The translations under genes and the position numbers were made by a program. The notes below the pieces were generated by a model. The model was not told the origin of the DNA. It was given only the letters and a program-made list of their open reading frames with translations, and made no database searches. DNA of 64,000 nt from Amycolatopsis tolypomycina. GTDB taxonomy: Bacteria > Actinomycetota > Actinomycetes > Mycobacteriales > Pseudonocardiaceae. The stretch is taken from positions 4,030,001-4,094,000 of the forward strand of contig NZ_FNSO01000004.1 of NCBI RefSeq assembly GCF_900105945.1. Reading direction: 5' to 3'. The stretch's first letter is position 1. Each line of letters starts with the position of its first letter. Below are positions 14,869 to 21,401 of this stretch, in pieces.

Positions 14869-15059
14869 TTCCATTCCTTTCCGCATGTCCTGGGATGCAC
14901 TCGGGATGCACTCGGGGACGTCCTCGGGCCGACGTTGGGTCGATCCTACCGAGCGGGTCCGACAGTTTCCGAGACCGCGCACTTTATGAACGCAATGGAG
15001 CGCCCGGCGGCTCCCGGTGTGATGCTGGCCACGCCCCGCTGCCGATCAAGGAGGATCGA

Positions 15060-15986
15060 GTGCCCGGACGCTTCCCCCGGTGGACGGCCGTGTTCGCCGC
15101 GGCCTGTGCCCTGACCACCGCCTTCGCCGCGCCCGCCGCCGCGGCCGGCGTCGCCGACCACCCCGTCCCGACCACCGGCTGCGGCCGTCCCGCGGGCTTC
15201 CCGGCCGGGGTGACGACCACCCGGCACGTCACCTCGGGCGGCCTCGACCGCGAGTACACCGTCCACCTGCCCGCCCACTACCGTCCGTGGCGGCCGTACC
15301 CGCTCGTCCTCTCCTTCCACGGGCACAAGCGGACGTCGCAGTACCAGGAAGAGCTGTCGGGCTTCTCGGCGCTGGACGCGATCGCCGTCTACCCGCAGGG
15401 CCTGATCGGCACCGACGGCGAGTCCGCGTGGACAGGGGCGCCCTACTCGGCCGCCGCGGACGACGTCCGGTTCACCGGCGACCTGCTGAACCAGCTGCAG
15501 CGCACGCTCTGCGTCGACCCCGGCCGGATCTTCGCGGCCGGCAAGTCCAACGGCGGCGGCTTCGTCGGCGTGCTGGCCTGCCGCCTGGCGAGCCGGATCG
15601 CCGCGTTCGCCCCGGTGTCCGGCGCGTTCTACCCGCAGGGCGGCGCGTGCCACCCGAGCCGGCCGGCGCCGATCCTCGACTTCCACGGAACGGCCGACAC
15701 GACGATCCCCTACACCGGCAACCCGGCGAAGGGCCTGCCCGCGATCCCGGACTGGCTGGCGGCATGGTCCACAAGGGACGGTTGCCGGCCCGGCCCGGTG
15801 TCGTGGTCACCGGTCGAGGGCGTCGTCGCCCAGAAGTGGCGGGGCTGCGCGCTCGAGCACTACCGCGTGGAAGGCGCCGGCCACGTCTGGCCCAGCACCC
15901 GGCCCAACAACGATTCCGCGACACCCACGGTGATCGACGCGACGCCGGTCATCTGGCGCTTCTTCCGCGCGCATCCCCTGCGCTGA
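15060..15986 (+). CDS. Secreted esterase, PHB depolymerase/feruloyl esterase type (CE1-like)
   Basis: 308 residues from GTG after AAGGAGGA. Signal peptide to about residue 29. An alpha/beta hydrolase fold follows: PLVLSFHGHKRTSQYQEELS with the HGxxG-type turn, nucleophile elbow GKSNGGGFVG, the Asp region DFHGTADTTIPYTG and His in VEGAGHVWPST. Members of this LpqC/FaeC-like group release feruloyl or acetyl groups from plant polysaccharides or cut polyesters; the substrate here is unknown. No operon partner. Confidence 0.85.
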   Translation: MPGRFPRWTAVFAAACALTTAFAAPAAAAGVADHPVPTTGCGRPAGFPAGVTTTRHVTSGGLDREYTVHLPAHYRPWRPYPLVLSFHGHKRTSQYQEELSGFSALDAIAVYPQGLIGTDGESAWTGAPYSAAADDVRFTGDLLNQLQRTLCVDPGRIFAAGKSNGGGFVGVLACRLASRIAAFAPVSGAFYPQGGACHPSRPAPILDFHGTADTTIPYTGNPAKGLPAIPDWLAAWSTRDGCRPGPVSWSPVEGVVAQKWRGCALEHYRVEGAGHVWPSTRPNNDSATPTVIDATPVIWRFFRAHPLR

Positions 15987-16077: not shown

Positions 16078-16539
16078 GTGAAGGTGCTCGTCCTGAACGC
16101 GGGTTACGAACCGCTGCAGACCGTTTCGGTCCCGCACGCGATCCGCATGCTCGTGCGGCACGTCGCCGAGATCCACGAGGCCGAAGAGGGCCTCGCCTAC
16201 GGTCTGTTCCCGCGCCCGAAGATCGTGCGGTTACTGCGCTACGTCGTCATGAAGTGGCGATATACGCAGCCGCCGCGCTGGTCCCGGCGCGGCGTGCTGG
16301 TCCGTGACGGCCACCGCTGCGCCTACTGCGGGCAGCGCGCCACCACGATCGACCACGTGACGCCGCTGAGCCGCGGCGGCGCCCGGACCGACTGGCTCAA
16401 CACGGTCGCCGCGTGCGGCGGCACGGCCCGCAGCTGCAACGCCCGCAAGGCGGACAAGCTGCCGGGCGAAGCCGGGATGAAGCTGCGGTTCACGCCGTAC
16501 GTCCCGGCGTGGGACCAGCTGCACCGGCCCGGCGCCTGA
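16078..16539 (+). CDS. HNH endonuclease family protein
   Basis: 153 residues from GTG with AAGGAG six bases upstream. The N-terminal MKVLVLNAGYEPLQTVS is typical of the actinobacterial housekeeping HNH protein. The HNH core has Cys81-x2-Cys84, Asp92-His93, and a second pair Cys113 and Cys120-Asn121, giving a zinc-stabilised beta-beta-alpha metal fold. Such genes are widespread and not tied to restriction systems; the biological target is unknown. Confidence 0.88.
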   Translation: MKVLVLNAGYEPLQTVSVPHAIRMLVRHVAEIHEAEEGLAYGLFPRPKIVRLLRYVVMKWRYTQPPRWSRRGVLVRDGHRCAYCGQRATTIDHVTPLSRGGARTDWLNTVAACGGTARSCNARKADKLPGEAGMKLRFTPYVPAWDQLHRPGA

Positions 16540-16646
16540 GCGCGGCCTGTCCGTCGGCACCCCGGCGGGCAGGCCGCTAGGCTCGAACCGATCGCCACCC
16601 CCATCCGTGTGCTCTGTGTGCTCTGGGGAAGGCCGGGGAGGTCGCC

Positions 16647-17999
16647 GTGACCGACGCAGGAGAGCTGATCGCCGGGCGCTACCGGCTGGCGACGAAGATC
16701 GGCCAAGGATCCATGGGTGTCGTCTGGCGCGCCCGCGACGAGCGCCTCGACCGGGTCGTCGCGGTCAAGCAGCTCGACTACGACGCCGCCATCGGGCAGG
16801 CCGCCGGGGAGCAGGCGAGCGTGCGCGCGCTGCGCGAAGCGCGGCTGACGGCCCGGTTGCGGCACCCGCACGCGATCACGGTGCACGACGTCGTCGAGGC
16901 CGACGGCGGGCCGTACCTGGTGATGGAGTACCTGCCGTCGCGCAGCCTGGCGGAGATCCTGCTCGACCGGGAGACCCTGCCCGCCGACGAGGTGGCGCGC
17001 ATCGGCGCGCCGATCGCCTCGGCGCTCGCCGCCGCGCACGCCGAGGGGGTCGTGCACCGCGACGTCACCCCCGCCAACGTCCTGCTCGGCGAGTCCGGCG
17101 TCGTCAAGATCGCCGACTTCGGCATTTCCCGTGCCACCGGCGAAGGCACCGTGACCGGCGGCGGGTTCATCGCCGGCACGCCCGCCTACCTGGCGCCCGA
17201 GGTCGCCGGCGGCCACGAAGCCGGTTTCCCCGCCGACGTCTTCTCCCTCGGCGCGACGCTCTACCGCGCACTGGAAGGCGCTCCCCCGTTCGGCCAGGAC
17301 GACAACGCGATCACGCTGCTGCTGCGGGTGGCGAAGGAGGAGGTCATCCCGCCGCGGCACACCGGGCCGCTCGCCGAGGTGCTGACCCGGATGCTGCAGC
17401 GAGACCCCGAAGCGCGCCCGTCGATGGCGGAGGTCCAGGAGCTGTTCGAGGCCGTCACCGGCGGCCGTCCGCTGCCACCGCCCCGGCCGCGGCCCCGGGC
17501 CGGCACCCGGCTGCTGCGCGTTCGCCGCCCGCGGCGCCGGCTCGTCCTGGCGGGCGCCGCGGGCGCTGTCCTGCTGGCTCTCGGCGTCGTGATCGGCACG
17601 GTGATCGTCCCGGACGGCACGCCGGTGGCCGCCCCGGTCTCGTCCGCCCCCGCGGCGCCGACGAGCCCGGCGCCCACGACACCGGCCGAGCTGGGTTGCG
17701 CCGCCCGCTACGAGGTGACGAACTCCTGGCCCGGCGGCTACCAGGTGCAGGTGACGGTGCGCAACGACCGGGCCGCGGGCCTGTCCGGCTGGAGCGTCCG
17801 CTGGACGCTGCCCGCCGGCCACCGCATCAGCGGCCTGTGGAACGGCACGTTCACGGTCGACGGTTCCACGGTGACGGTCGAAAACGCGGCCTGGAACGCG
17901 AAGCTCGACGCGGCCGCGTCGACGACCTTCGGCCTGATCGCCCTGACCGGCACCGGGAGCGACGCCGCCCGCCCGGCGCTCACCTGCCGGACGCTCTGA
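16647..17999 (+). CDS. Ser/Thr protein kinase with extracellular cellulose-binding (CBM2) domain
   Basis: 450 residues. A cytosolic eukaryotic-type kinase spans about 11-270: GQGSMGVVW loop, Lys41, HRD at 137-139, DFG at 157-159 and GTPAYLAPE. A basic Pro-rich juxtamembrane part leads to one helix (about 299-321), a Thr/Pro/Ala linker, and a C-terminal domain (350-447) with the features of CBM family 2: Cys351 and Cys447 at its ends, and the three surface tryptophans Trp361, Trp398 and Trp416. All kinase residues look intact, so this is a plausible polysaccharide sensor. GTG start after GGGGAGG. Confidence 0.92.
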   Translation: MTDAGELIAGRYRLATKIGQGSMGVVWRARDERLDRVVAVKQLDYDAAIGQAAGEQASVRALREARLTARLRHPHAITVHDVVEADGGPYLVMEYLPSRSLAEILLDRETLPADEVARIGAPIASALAAAHAEGVVHRDVTPANVLLGESGVVKIADFGISRATGEGTVTGGGFIAGTPAYLAPEVAGGHEAGFPADVFSLGATLYRALEGAPPFGQDDNAITLLLRVAKEEVIPPRHTGPLAEVLTRMLQRDPEARPSMAEVQELFEAVTGGRPLPPPRPRPRAGTRLLRVRRPRRRLVLAGAAGAVLLALGVVIGTVIVPDGTPVAAPVSSAPAAPTSPAPTTPAELGCAARYEVTNSWPGGYQVQVTVRNDRAAGLSGWSVRWTLPAGHRISGLWNGTFTVDGSTVTVENAAWNAKLDAAASTTFGLIALTGTGSDAARPALTCRTL

Positions 18000-18108
18000 G
18001 CGCCGCTGGTCCGATCAGGGCAATTCGGGAAAGATCGCCCACCGGGCTCAACGGTCCGGGCGACTGGCTCGTCGGTAGTGGTGAATCGACCACCACACGG
18101 AGGTGCCA

Positions 18109-20244
18109 GTGCGAAGATGTCTTTCGGCGTTCGCGGTCCTGCTCGCCGGTTCGGCGGGGCTGACCGGGCTCGCCCCACCGGCCTCGGCCGCCGCCGCGGT
18201 CCCGTCGTCGACCGTCACGCTCGTCACCGGCGACCAGGTGACCGTCCGGACCGCCCCGGACGGCCGGGACTCGTGGGAGATCCGCCCCGCCGCGGCCAAG
18301 GGCATGGCACGGGCGCTGGTGCACCTGCGCCTCGGCGACCGGGACTACGAGGTCCCCGGCACCGCGCTGCCCTACCTCGGGCGCGGGCTCGACCTGAGCC
18401 TGTTCGACGTCAAGGCGCTGCTGGCCGGGGCCAAGGCGCCGGTGGACCCCGCGACGTTCGGCGCAGCGCTGGCCAAGCAGTTCACCCAGGACAGTGCCCG
18501 CGGCCGGTTCGGCGGCCAGGGGCTGTTCGCGAACGGCGTCCGGTACGCCCTCGCGGGCGCGCCGCAGCGGCAGGCGGCCCGGCCGCGGTCGGTGATGCGG
18601 ACGGTCTCCGTCGACGCCACCGACATCGCGGGCAAGCCCGCCGACACCGGCGTCGCGTTCCTTTACAACACCGACGACGGCAACGCACTCGGCGCGGACG
18701 AGAACTTCAACTACTTCTTCGGCGGCACGGCCAAGTTCAGCGTGCCGGAGGGCAACTACAGCGCACTCGGCCTGTTCTGGACGCTCGACGCCGACGGCAA
18801 CCCGACCGAGGTGCGGTTCAGCGCGCAGCCGGAGTTCGCGGTGAAGGCCGACGCGACCGTCCGCGTCGACGCGAAACGGGCGTCCAGCAAGGTGACCTGG
18901 GTGACGCCGCGCCCGGCGCTGCTCGACGACACCGGGTTCCTGTTCCGCCGGGCCGCCGTGACCGGGCCGGCGCTGCTCGTCGACTTCGACGCCGGGCCCG
19001 GCGTGCCGATCTCGGTGTCGCCGACGGCCGTCCCGGTGCGCACCGGCGCCCTGCAGACGTACCCGTACAGCAGGCTCGTGTCGCCGCCCGGGCCGGGCAC
19101 GCCGTACGAATACGTGCTGCAGAAGGCGAGCGTCGGCGTGATTCCGCAGCAGCGGTACGTGATCACGGCGAAGGACGTCGCCGCGGTCGACGCCACCTAC
19201 TACAGCGAGTACTCCTCGCTCGGCCTGCGGCAGCGCAGCGGGATGTTCTCGTTCGAGGACATCAGCGGCCGGGTGTCGCACCCGATCCAGCTGCCGCGGA
19301 AGCAGACCGAGTACGTCTCGGCGGCACCGGACCTGGGGTGGTTCGGCGGGTTCTCGAAGTACGTGCTGCCGGGGCCGTTCCCCGGCTGGGCCGGCGGCCA
19401 GCGCGAGCAGTTCCACAGCTACCGGGGCGGCTCGGCGGTGACCGAGGAGTGGAACCGCTTCCCGCTGCACCCGGCGGGCGCGGTGGCGCTGCTGCCGCTG
19501 TCCGACGGCCGGTCGTACACGCTGCCGGGCGCGACCCGGGCGGGCGACCTGCTGCGGTTCTCGATCACGCCGTTCAGCGACAACCAGCCGGGCCACACCG
19601 GCTTCGGCTTCTACGGCGAGTCGCGGGACACGATCACCGGGCACTACCGGTTCACCCAGGACGGCACGACCCTGGCCGAAGGCGAGCCGATGGGGGCCAC
19701 CGAGGTCGGTTTCGCGCAGGAGGTCGCGCCCGGTCCGTCGACGCTGGGGCTCACGATCGACGCGGGGCGCACCGGGCCGATGTACCGGCAGAGCACCGCG
19801 ACCCACACCGAGTGGACGTGGCGGTCGCAGCACGTCGCGGGGGCGACGCTGCCGCCGAGCCTGTACTGCGCCCGCGGGGACGGCGGCCCGGACCGGGAGT
19901 GCGCGGTCGAACCGCTGCTGACGCTGGGATACGCGGTCGGCGGGCTGCGGCCGGACGGGTCGACGGTGTCCGGCCCGCAGAGCCTGGACCTCACGGTCGG
20001 GCACCTGCAGCAGAGCACCGCCTCGCCGGTGACGGCGGCGACCGTGCAGTACTCGACCGACGGCACGACCTGGCAGGACGCGCCCGTCACCGCCCGCGGC
20101 GACGGGGTGTTCCACGCGGACTTCGGCGTGGTCACGCAGTCGTTCCGCGGCGCGGACGTCTCCCTGCGCGTCACCGCTTCGGACGCCGCCGGGGCGACGA
20201 TCAGCGAGACGATCACCGCCGCCTACCACGTCTACACGTCATGA
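18109..20244 (+). CDS. Large secreted protein resembling the non-catalytic parts of actinobacterial S8 proteases
   Basis: 711 residues from GTG, five bases after GGAGG. Signal peptide to about residue 30, then SSTVTLVTGDQVTVRTAPDG, the opening motif seen in prodomains of many secreted actinobacterial subtilisins. The Asp/His/Ser catalytic blocks of S8 proteases are absent. The middle and end are beta-rich, with a C-terminal Ig- or Fn3-like part (TVQYSTDGTTWQDAPV). Its stop overlaps the start of the sedolisin gene, so the two are made together and may work together outside the cell. Confidence 0.8.
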   Translation: MRRCLSAFAVLLAGSAGLTGLAPPASAAAAVPSSTVTLVTGDQVTVRTAPDGRDSWEIRPAAAKGMARALVHLRLGDRDYEVPGTALPYLGRGLDLSLFDVKALLAGAKAPVDPATFGAALAKQFTQDSARGRFGGQGLFANGVRYALAGAPQRQAARPRSVMRTVSVDATDIAGKPADTGVAFLYNTDDGNALGADENFNYFFGGTAKFSVPEGNYSALGLFWTLDADGNPTEVRFSAQPEFAVKADATVRVDAKRASSKVTWVTPRPALLDDTGFLFRRAAVTGPALLVDFDAGPGVPISVSPTAVPVRTGALQTYPYSRLVSPPGPGTPYEYVLQKASVGVIPQQRYVITAKDVAAVDATYYSEYSSLGLRQRSGMFSFEDISGRVSHPIQLPRKQTEYVSAAPDLGWFGGFSKYVLPGPFPGWAGGQREQFHSYRGGSAVTEEWNRFPLHPAGAVALLPLSDGRSYTLPGATRAGDLLRFSITPFSDNQPGHTGFGFYGESRDTITGHYRFTQDGTTLAEGEPMGATEVGFAQEVAPGPSTLGLTIDAGRTGPMYRQSTATHTEWTWRSQHVAGATLPPSLYCARGDGGPDRECAVEPLLTLGYAVGGLRPDGSTVSGPQSLDLTVGHLQQSTASPVTAATVQYSTDGTTWQDAPVTARGDGVFHADFGVVTQSFRGADVSLRVTASDAAGATISETITAAYHVYTS

Positions 20245-21401
20245 GGGGACTGTCCACTGTGAACAGAAGATGGCTGGGGGTGCTGGCCGCCGCGGTGGCG
20301 GCCGCCGGCGTGGTGACGCCGTCGGCGAGTGCGGCACCGGGTCCGCGGGCGGCGTGCCCCGAGCGACCGGGCGTGCTGCGGTGCCTCACCACGTACACGC
20401 CGGGTGCGGCCCGGGCCTTCGGCCCGGCCGGCTGGGGTGCCGACGACCTGGCGTCGGCCTATGCGCTGCCCGCCACGGCGGGGCCGGACACGGTCATCGG
20501 GATCTCGATCGCCTACGACGCCCCGAACCTGGAGGCCGACCTGGCCACCTACCGGGCGCAGTACGGCCTGCCACCGTGCACGACGGCGAACGGCTGCTTC
20601 CGCAAGGTCAACCAGCAGGGCGTGGCGGCACCCCTGCCGCCGTCCGACTTCGGCTGGGCGGTCGAGTCCACATTGGACGTCTCGATGGTGTCGGCGGCGT
20701 GCCCGTCGTGCCGGATCCTGGTCGTGGAGGGCAACACGCCCGGTTTCGCCGACCTGGCGGAGACGGAGGACACGGCGGTGCGGCTGGGCGCGAAGGTGGT
20801 GTCGAACAGCTACGGCGCGAGGGAAGGCGGCGCGGCGCTGGCGTACGCGAGCCACTACCGGCACCCGGGCGTGACGGTGGTGGCATCCTCCGGCGACAGC
20901 GGCTTCACGGCGGCGAGCTACCCGGCGGTCCTGGCCACGACGGTGGCGGTCGGCGGCACCTCGCTGGCCCGCGACCCGGATTCACCGCGCGGCTGGGCGG
21001 AGTGGGCCTGGCCGTACGGCGGCAGCGGCTGCTCGGCGTACATCGCGAAGCCGAAGTGGCAGAAGGACACCCACTGCAGCAAGCGGACGGTCGCGGACGT
21101 GTCGGCGGTGGCCGAGGACGTCGCGATCCACGTCGCGGACGCGGGCGGCTGGCTCCCGGCGAGCGGGACGAGCGCTTCGGCACCGTTCGTGGCGGGGCTG
21201 ATCGGCCGCGCGGGTCACGCAGGAGTGACGCAACCAGCGGACATCTACGCTCGAGCGGCCGCGTTCACGGACGTGACAACGGGCCACAACGACCCGTCGG
21301 GCGCGGGCAAGAAGTGCGGCTGGGACTACCTGTGCGTAGCGGGCCCGGGCTACGACGCGCCGACGGGTGTCGGGGTGCCGAACGGCCTGGCGGGCCTCTG
21401 A
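20241..21401 (+). CDS. Secreted S53 (sedolisin) family peptidase
   Basis: 386 residues with a signal peptide to about residue 31. The sedolisin catalytic set is visible: Glu142 and Asp146 in WAVESTLDVSM, oxyanion Asp219 in SSGDSG, and Ser311 in SGTSASAPF. The Ca-binding C-terminus reads GYDAPTGVGVPNG. After the signal only about 40 residues precede the catalytic domain, so the large prodomain typical of sedolisins is missing. Serine-carboxyl peptidases act in acid. ATGA overlap with the gene before; a GTG at 20260 is an alternative start. Confidence 0.9.
   Translation: MRGLSTVNRRWLGVLAAAVAAAGVVTPSASAAPGPRAACPERPGVLRCLTTYTPGAARAFGPAGWGADDLASAYALPATAGPDTVIGISIAYDAPNLEADLATYRAQYGLPPCTTANGCFRKVNQQGVAAPLPPSDFGWAVESTLDVSMVSAACPSCRILVVEGNTPGFADLAETEDTAVRLGAKVVSNSYGAREGGAALAYASHYRHPGVTVVASSGDSGFTAASYPAVLATTVAVGGTSLARDPDSPRGWAEWAWPYGGSGCSAYIAKPKWQKDTHCSKRTVADVSAVAEDVAIHVADAGGWLPASGTSASAPFVAGLIGRAGHAGVTQPADIYARAAAFTDVTTGHNDPSGAGKKCGWDYLCVAGPGYDAPTGVGVPNGLAGL

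Follow-up and report, generated by a model that had tools for sequence, protein, structure and literature searches.

In a 64,000-nucleotide stretch of DNA from the soil actinomycete Amycolatopsis tolypomycina (the window, meaning the whole stretch that was analyzed), we identify a receptor-like kinase that is real and conserved and whose CBM2 domain is genuine and of the cellulose/chitin type. The first-pass annotation had proposed a transmembrane Ser/Thr kinase displaying a cellulose-binding domain at 16647..17999, and our analysis confirms both the reading frame, which runs for 450 aa from a GTG start at 16647 to a stop at 17999, and the architecture, which is well supported by profile matches, by a structural model, by the conservation of binding-face residues and by distribution. 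The features of this locus, all on the forward strand, are as follows.

15060..15986, forward strand, feruloyl-esterase-like gene, probably secreted, two genes upstream of the kinase (start placed by eye against an orthologue)
16078..16539, forward strand, HNH endonuclease-like gene, immediate upstream neighbour (Pfam HNH_5/HNH; present at all 13 orthologous loci from named Amycolatopsis)
16635..16641, forward strand, Shine-Dalgarno-like stretch GGGGAGG, 5 nt before the GTG at 16647 (read directly in the sequence)
16647..17999, forward strand, kinase-CBM2 gene, 450 aa (Pfam hits)
16680..17438, forward strand, Hanks-type kinase domain, aa 12-264, with Thr141 at HRD+2 (Pfam PF00069; PknA in PDB and Foldseek searches)
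17439..17534, forward strand, Pro/Arg-rich juxtamembrane segment, aa 265-296
17535..17603, forward strand, single transmembrane helix, aa 297-319 (AlphaFold2 helix; hydrophobicity)
17604..17696, forward strand, disordered extracellular linker rich in Ala/Pro/Thr/Ser, aa 320-350 (pLDDT, conservation)
17697..17987, forward strand, CBM2 domain, aa 351-447, with Trp361, Trp398, Trp416 and Gly364 (Pfam PF00553, model, Foldseek/VIA)

Both domains are recognized with wide margins by Pfam, Pkinase (PF00069) at aa 12-264 (8.3e-49, 166.8 bits against a cut-off of 31.7) and CBM_2 (PF00553) at aa 351-446 (1.5e-23, 83.4 bits against a cut-off of 24), and PknA is the best match of the kinase domain both in the PDB (1.3e-40) and by Foldseek (1.7e-23). 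The AlphaFold2 model places a helix at 297-319, where pLDDT is low, and the most hydrophobic 19-residue stretch of the protein lies at 299-317 (mean 2.51). Counted from the end of this stretch at 317, the linker between membrane and CBM2 is ~33 aa long, with pLDDT below 50 at 320-345; across 77 full-length sequences its length varies from 17 to 65 aa (median 30). The CBM2 part of the model has a pLDDT of 95.7 and adopts, as predicted, the beta-sandwich fold of CBM2, with Foldseek/VIA matches that include 1e5b, an R262G mutant structure. Estimates of dN/dS (NG86, five ortholog pairs) were 0.14-0.25 for the kinase and 0.11-0.42 for CBM2, i.e., both domains are under purifying selection in these pairs. 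A chance or frame artefact is ruled out by the Pfam matches, the 77 relatives of the same layout and these dN/dS values, and we take the overlapping 518-aa forward ORF at 16607 and the 499-aa reverse ORF at 16323 for GC-rich shadows of the kinase gene.

Our search for the same fusion in other genomes was positive. The nearest named relatives are Amycolatopsis strains (MtRt-6 is 95% identical in the best segment), and full-length homologues also occur in named Lentzea and Saccharothrix strains. Full-length homologues, defined as matches reaching residue 430 or beyond and picked by eye among the matches listed (down to ~320 bits), are present in at least 46 of 200 genomes of the family, in 11 of 46 genera; one genome whose match ends at residue 394 (G305) is left out of the 46. 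Class-wide, no other full-length fusion was found among the matches listed for 98 genomes (down to ~165 bits), a search that may miss weak or separately formed fusions. In a tree of CBM2 domains, 44 of 46 fusion CBM2 fall on one side of a 98/91 branch, with two fusions and 18 enzyme CBM2 copies of this genome on the other, and all fusion CBM2 are joined in only 11% of bootstrap trees, which are built from few columns. On these phylogenies a single origin of the fusion is possible.

The first-pass annotation held that all kinase motifs are intact, which is true of every motif but one. The Gly loop, the VAVK Lys, the alpha-C Glu, the HRD Asp, the Asn, DFG and APE are all present; in the catalytic loop, HRDVTPAN, the Lys at HRD+2 is replaced by Thr141. 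We aligned 77 unique full-length sequences, the window protein included, drawn from 104 hits in fetched loci, and this alignment demonstrated that K41, E64, H137, D139, N144, D157, F158, G159, P184 and E185 are invariant (77/77) and R138 nearly so (75/77), with HRD+2 occupied by T in 40, K in 24 and S in 13. Of the 31 kinase matches in this genome, 27 are readable at HRD+2; 24 of these have Lys, and the three with Thr/Ser are exactly the genome's three CBM2 kinases. Among kinases whose match stops before CBM2, 16 of 20 sampled were readable, and all 16 have Lys, end in C-terminal segments of other kinds and cluster as one group in the kinase tree (97/93). In the same tree, 23 of the 24 Thr/Ser representatives belong to a single sub-lineage of fusions (94/80). 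Parts of one published account (PMC6570481) report that Lys occupies HRD+2 in 86% of Ser/Thr kinases, that Nek10 and the TESK kinases also have Thr there, that Nek10 is active and needs this Thr for its tyrosine activity, and that Nek1 given the same Thr lost activity 6-8 fold and gained no tyrosine preference. The protein is therefore not favoured as a tyrosine kinase from its HRD+2 Thr alone, since APE-4 is Pro179, of the Ser/Thr type, and the Thr form of Nek1 did not turn to tyrosine in that account; judged by its motifs, it is expected to be a Ser/Thr kinase, perhaps a slow one.

The three tryptophans and the terminal cysteines claimed for the outer domain (Trp361, Trp398, Trp416, Cys351 and Cys447) were found at or adjoining the positions given for them. 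Trp361, Trp398 and Gly364 are invariant in all 77 sequences; the Trp416 site holds Trp in 61, His in eight, Tyr in seven and a gap in one, and Cys351 and Cys447 are kept in 77 and 74, respectively. The mean frequency of the top residue is 0.73 in the kinase, 0.63 in CBM2 and 0.36 in the linker, the least conserved part. Three exposed Trp together with Gly, not Arg, at W+3 make up the CBM2a pattern, which points to cellulose or chitin rather than xylan. Because Gly364 stands at W+3 beside three Trp, cellulose or chitin is favoured over xylan as the putative ligand, and by the same Gly/Arg rule xylan is disfavoured. The earlier proposal of a protein that senses cellulose, xylan or chitin-like polymers directly is no more than plausible; the CBM2a signature speaks for cellulose and chitin and makes xylan the less likely of these ligands.

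Examination of the genomic neighbourhood showed that htpG, on the opposite strand, keeps its place beside the HNH and kinase genes at every one of the 13 orthologous loci from named Amycolatopsis. A feruloyl-esterase-like gene accompanies them at 12 of these 13; the window copy matches the feruloyl esterase PDB 9j07 (E 3.9e-64, query 14988-15986). Downstream of the kinase, a gene for a probably secreted product lies within 6 kb in eight of 13 orthologous loci, one of them partial. In the window itself, 18103-20244 encodes a protein of 713 aa, to all appearances secreted, in which Pfam recognizes no domain; a subtilase-family match comes next (20241-21401), and this pair is present in only part of the orthologous loci. 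No glycan transporter or LacI gene was found among the window neighbours at ~12.2-23.7 kb (Pfam for four, the rest by eye). Among 38 non-orthologous loci, 10 have a LacI-type gene no more than six genes away from the fusion, in few lineages, a count that leaves out four fusion loci (L155, L157, L169 and L170) and in which L055 and L163 are seemingly one record, so that one locus is counted twice. As proof of partnership these neighbours are weak, since they come from few lineages, two LacI proteins compared across groups are 29% identical, and LacI matches number 47 in the genome as a whole. The fusions of a further Amycolatopsis group (L149-L154) have a chondroitinase-B-type lyase and a sugar permease nearby in 6/6 loci and an alpha-L-fucosidase in 5/6, with lyase and fucosidase assigned by Pfam in L151 only and permeases by eye; a LacI-type gene is near the fusion in most of these loci.

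Sugar-responsive LacI-type repressors, e.g., CelR, are the usual explanation for the way in which aerobic actinomycetes detect insoluble polysaccharide. CelR-like sites (TGGGAGCGCTCCCA, at most one mismatch) number 27 in this genome, against three for a reversed control pattern, and 15 of the 25 non-kinase CBM2 matches in the genome lie within 3 kb of one. All 27 sites are more than 114 kb away from each of the three CBM2 kinases (at most one mismatch, whole genome), and at three mismatches TGGGAGCGCTCCCA matches the window three times, against 6.9 by chance. With the nearest site 114 kb away, we reject CelR control of the window kinase and of both paralogues. Four or more CBM2 matches were counted in 34 of 46 genomes with a listed fusion and in 34 of 154 without (the kinase's own CBM2 counted, kinship ignored, at most 23 matches counted for each genome). 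Six genomes (G205, G235, G256, G228, G196 and G176) have a single CBM2 match whose E-value, with bits converted, fits the kinase's own CBM2, and they appear to keep the kinase without any other recognizable CBM2 protein. At the other extreme, 13 genomes with at least 20 CBM2, among them G305, have no full-length fusion among the matches listed.

Our leading reading, which leads without being secure and which we place a little short of an even chance, is that the protein is a membrane receptor kinase that senses beta-1,4-glycan outside the cell. The flat aromatic face of Trp361, Trp398 and Trp416 would bind a cellulose- or chitin-like polymer, most likely plant or fungal debris touched by a hypha, and multivalent contact with it would gather the single-pass kinases. 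Brought together, these could phosphorylate one another in the activation loop, around Thr168/Thr170, and then act on targets in the cytoplasm, among which regulators of polysaccharide use are plausible. We count in favour of sensing outside the cell that the fusion is commoner in CBM2-rich genomes, that a feruloyl-esterase-like gene is nearby, that some relatives adjoin LacI regulators, and that so many other CBM2 matches lie close to CelR-like sites. Against it stand the CBM2-rich genomes without a listed fusion, the want of a CelR site near the kinase or of glycan transporter and LacI neighbours, the six genomes in which the kinase CBM2 is apparently the sole CBM2, and the linker, which seems too short to cross the wall: stretched, ~33 aa reach at most ~12 nm, and the Gram-positive wall is apparently thicker than this.

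Because the linker is short and some genomes seem to have the kinase as their only CBM2 protein, a ligand in the organism's own wall is a serious alternative, if on balance a rather unlikely one. Here CBM2 would grip a glycan of the cell's own wall (the peptidoglycan backbone or another beta-1,4-linked polymer) and report the state of the wall rather than food, and the kinase would be held at sites of growth or remodelling, as PASTA domains do for PknB. The lack of a CelR site near the kinase and its constant place beside HtpG and the HNH gene also fit such a role, but a flat CBM2a face of three Trp suits crystalline cellulose or chitin, and genomes that carry the fusion are richer in CBM2. 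Moreover, a search for PF09118, which we take to be the family that would go with a Streptomyces-like tip glycan (GlxA), gave no match in this genome, with a working control that was positive in 25 of 98 genomes of the class, and a tip glycan of the GlxA type is therefore unlikely as the own-wall ligand. For PknB itself, parts of one report describe an ectodomain that binds muropeptides and is needed for localisation (PMC3145798), in keeping with a wall ligand. We regard it as improbable that CBM2 no longer binds glycan, or binds something else such as a partner protein, and serves as the structural ectodomain of an ordinary PknA-like kinase: CBM2 is less conserved than the kinase and Trp416 is lost in some lineages, but two exposed Trp and Gly364 are kept in every sequence, 45 representatives are 35-83% identical to the window domain, and selection is purifying on both domains. 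Least probable of all, and very much so, is that the HRD+2 Thr makes this a weak kinase, or one that signals as a scaffold, with phosphotransfer not its main output. The loss of activity described for Nek1 and the confinement of non-Lys residues to the three CBM2 kinases among the 27 kinases read in this genome would suit this, but none of the 77 sequences departs from the ATP-site Lys, the alpha-C Glu, the catalytic Asp, the Asn or DFG, Nek10 with Thr is described as active (PMC6570481), and Lys stands at HRD+2 in 24 of these 77 proteins, which share the layout.

By its layout the protein appears to work like RsgI or PASTA sensors while being a member of neither. It shares with PASTA kinases of the PknB-PknA group the kinase fold, close sequence, an N-terminal kinase, one TM helix and a C-terminal outer part towards the wall, but differs in its CBM2 ectodomain and its HRD+2 Thr; it scores 232.7 against a cut-off of 450 with the PASTA kinase profile NF033483 and has no PASTA match in Pfam. 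The RsgI anti-sigma-I factors of Clostridium thermocellum, as described in parts of PMC4711584, likewise have an N-terminal cytoplasmic effector, a TM segment and, outside, a CBM-like domain at the C terminus; depending on the RsgI, the ligand is cellulose, xylan or pectin, and these factors have a wall-spanning segment. In the window protein, by contrast, the RsgI N-terminal sigma-binding domain has no match among the nine families compared and a kinase takes its place, the outer domain is CBM2 rather than CBM3, PA14 or GH10, and the linker of ~33 aa would be too short to serve as a wall-spanning segment. The CBM2a domains of cellulases, chitinases and LPMOs (Cex, ScLPMO10C) have the same fold, three exposed Trp, Gly at W+3 and paired Cys, whereas the domain here is attached to a membrane kinase and most kinase CBM2 stand apart from the enzyme copies in the tree.

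Sensors with a CBM are thus already known in RsgI, and the kinase as effector is the new part; we recognized no description of a CBM2 kinase in the open-licence papers searched. If the leading reading is true, strains of Amycolatopsis, Lentzea and Saccharothrix have a direct contact sensor for insoluble polysaccharide; in the alternative outcome, the CBM2 kinase would bring to light a glycan that is part of their own walls or lies on them. More boldly, and in our estimate doubtful, these proteins may be a family-wide class of bacterial glycan-receptor kinases, in which contact of insoluble beta-1,4-polymer with the CBM2 ectodomain is itself the switch for the cytoplasmic kinase, as a bacterial counterpart of lectin receptor kinases, and in which the HRD+2 change of the Thr/Ser sub-lineage may also broaden the kinase towards tyrosine, as in Nek10.

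The two further fusions of this genome lie in tandem and are followed by a LacI regulator and then a degenerate kinase, with every gene on the same strand and little space between them (L120:7852-13091, G000:C4 about 2063851-2069090), and this operon-like cluster may be a better place for testing the sensing idea. These LacI-adjacent paralogues resemble, by gene context, the actinobacterial Ser/Thr kinases Sros_0943 and Tbis_0860, which parts of PMC3377646 place beside a LacI regulator and link to CelR sites, whereas the window gene has neither a CelR site nor a LacI neighbour. Elsewhere (L234:2881-6536), there is an esterase that has a CBM2 of its own and, at its start, a CelR-like site with one mismatch; after it comes another kinase, in which DLG replaces DFG and a TM segment and an unnamed ectodomain can be seen by eye.
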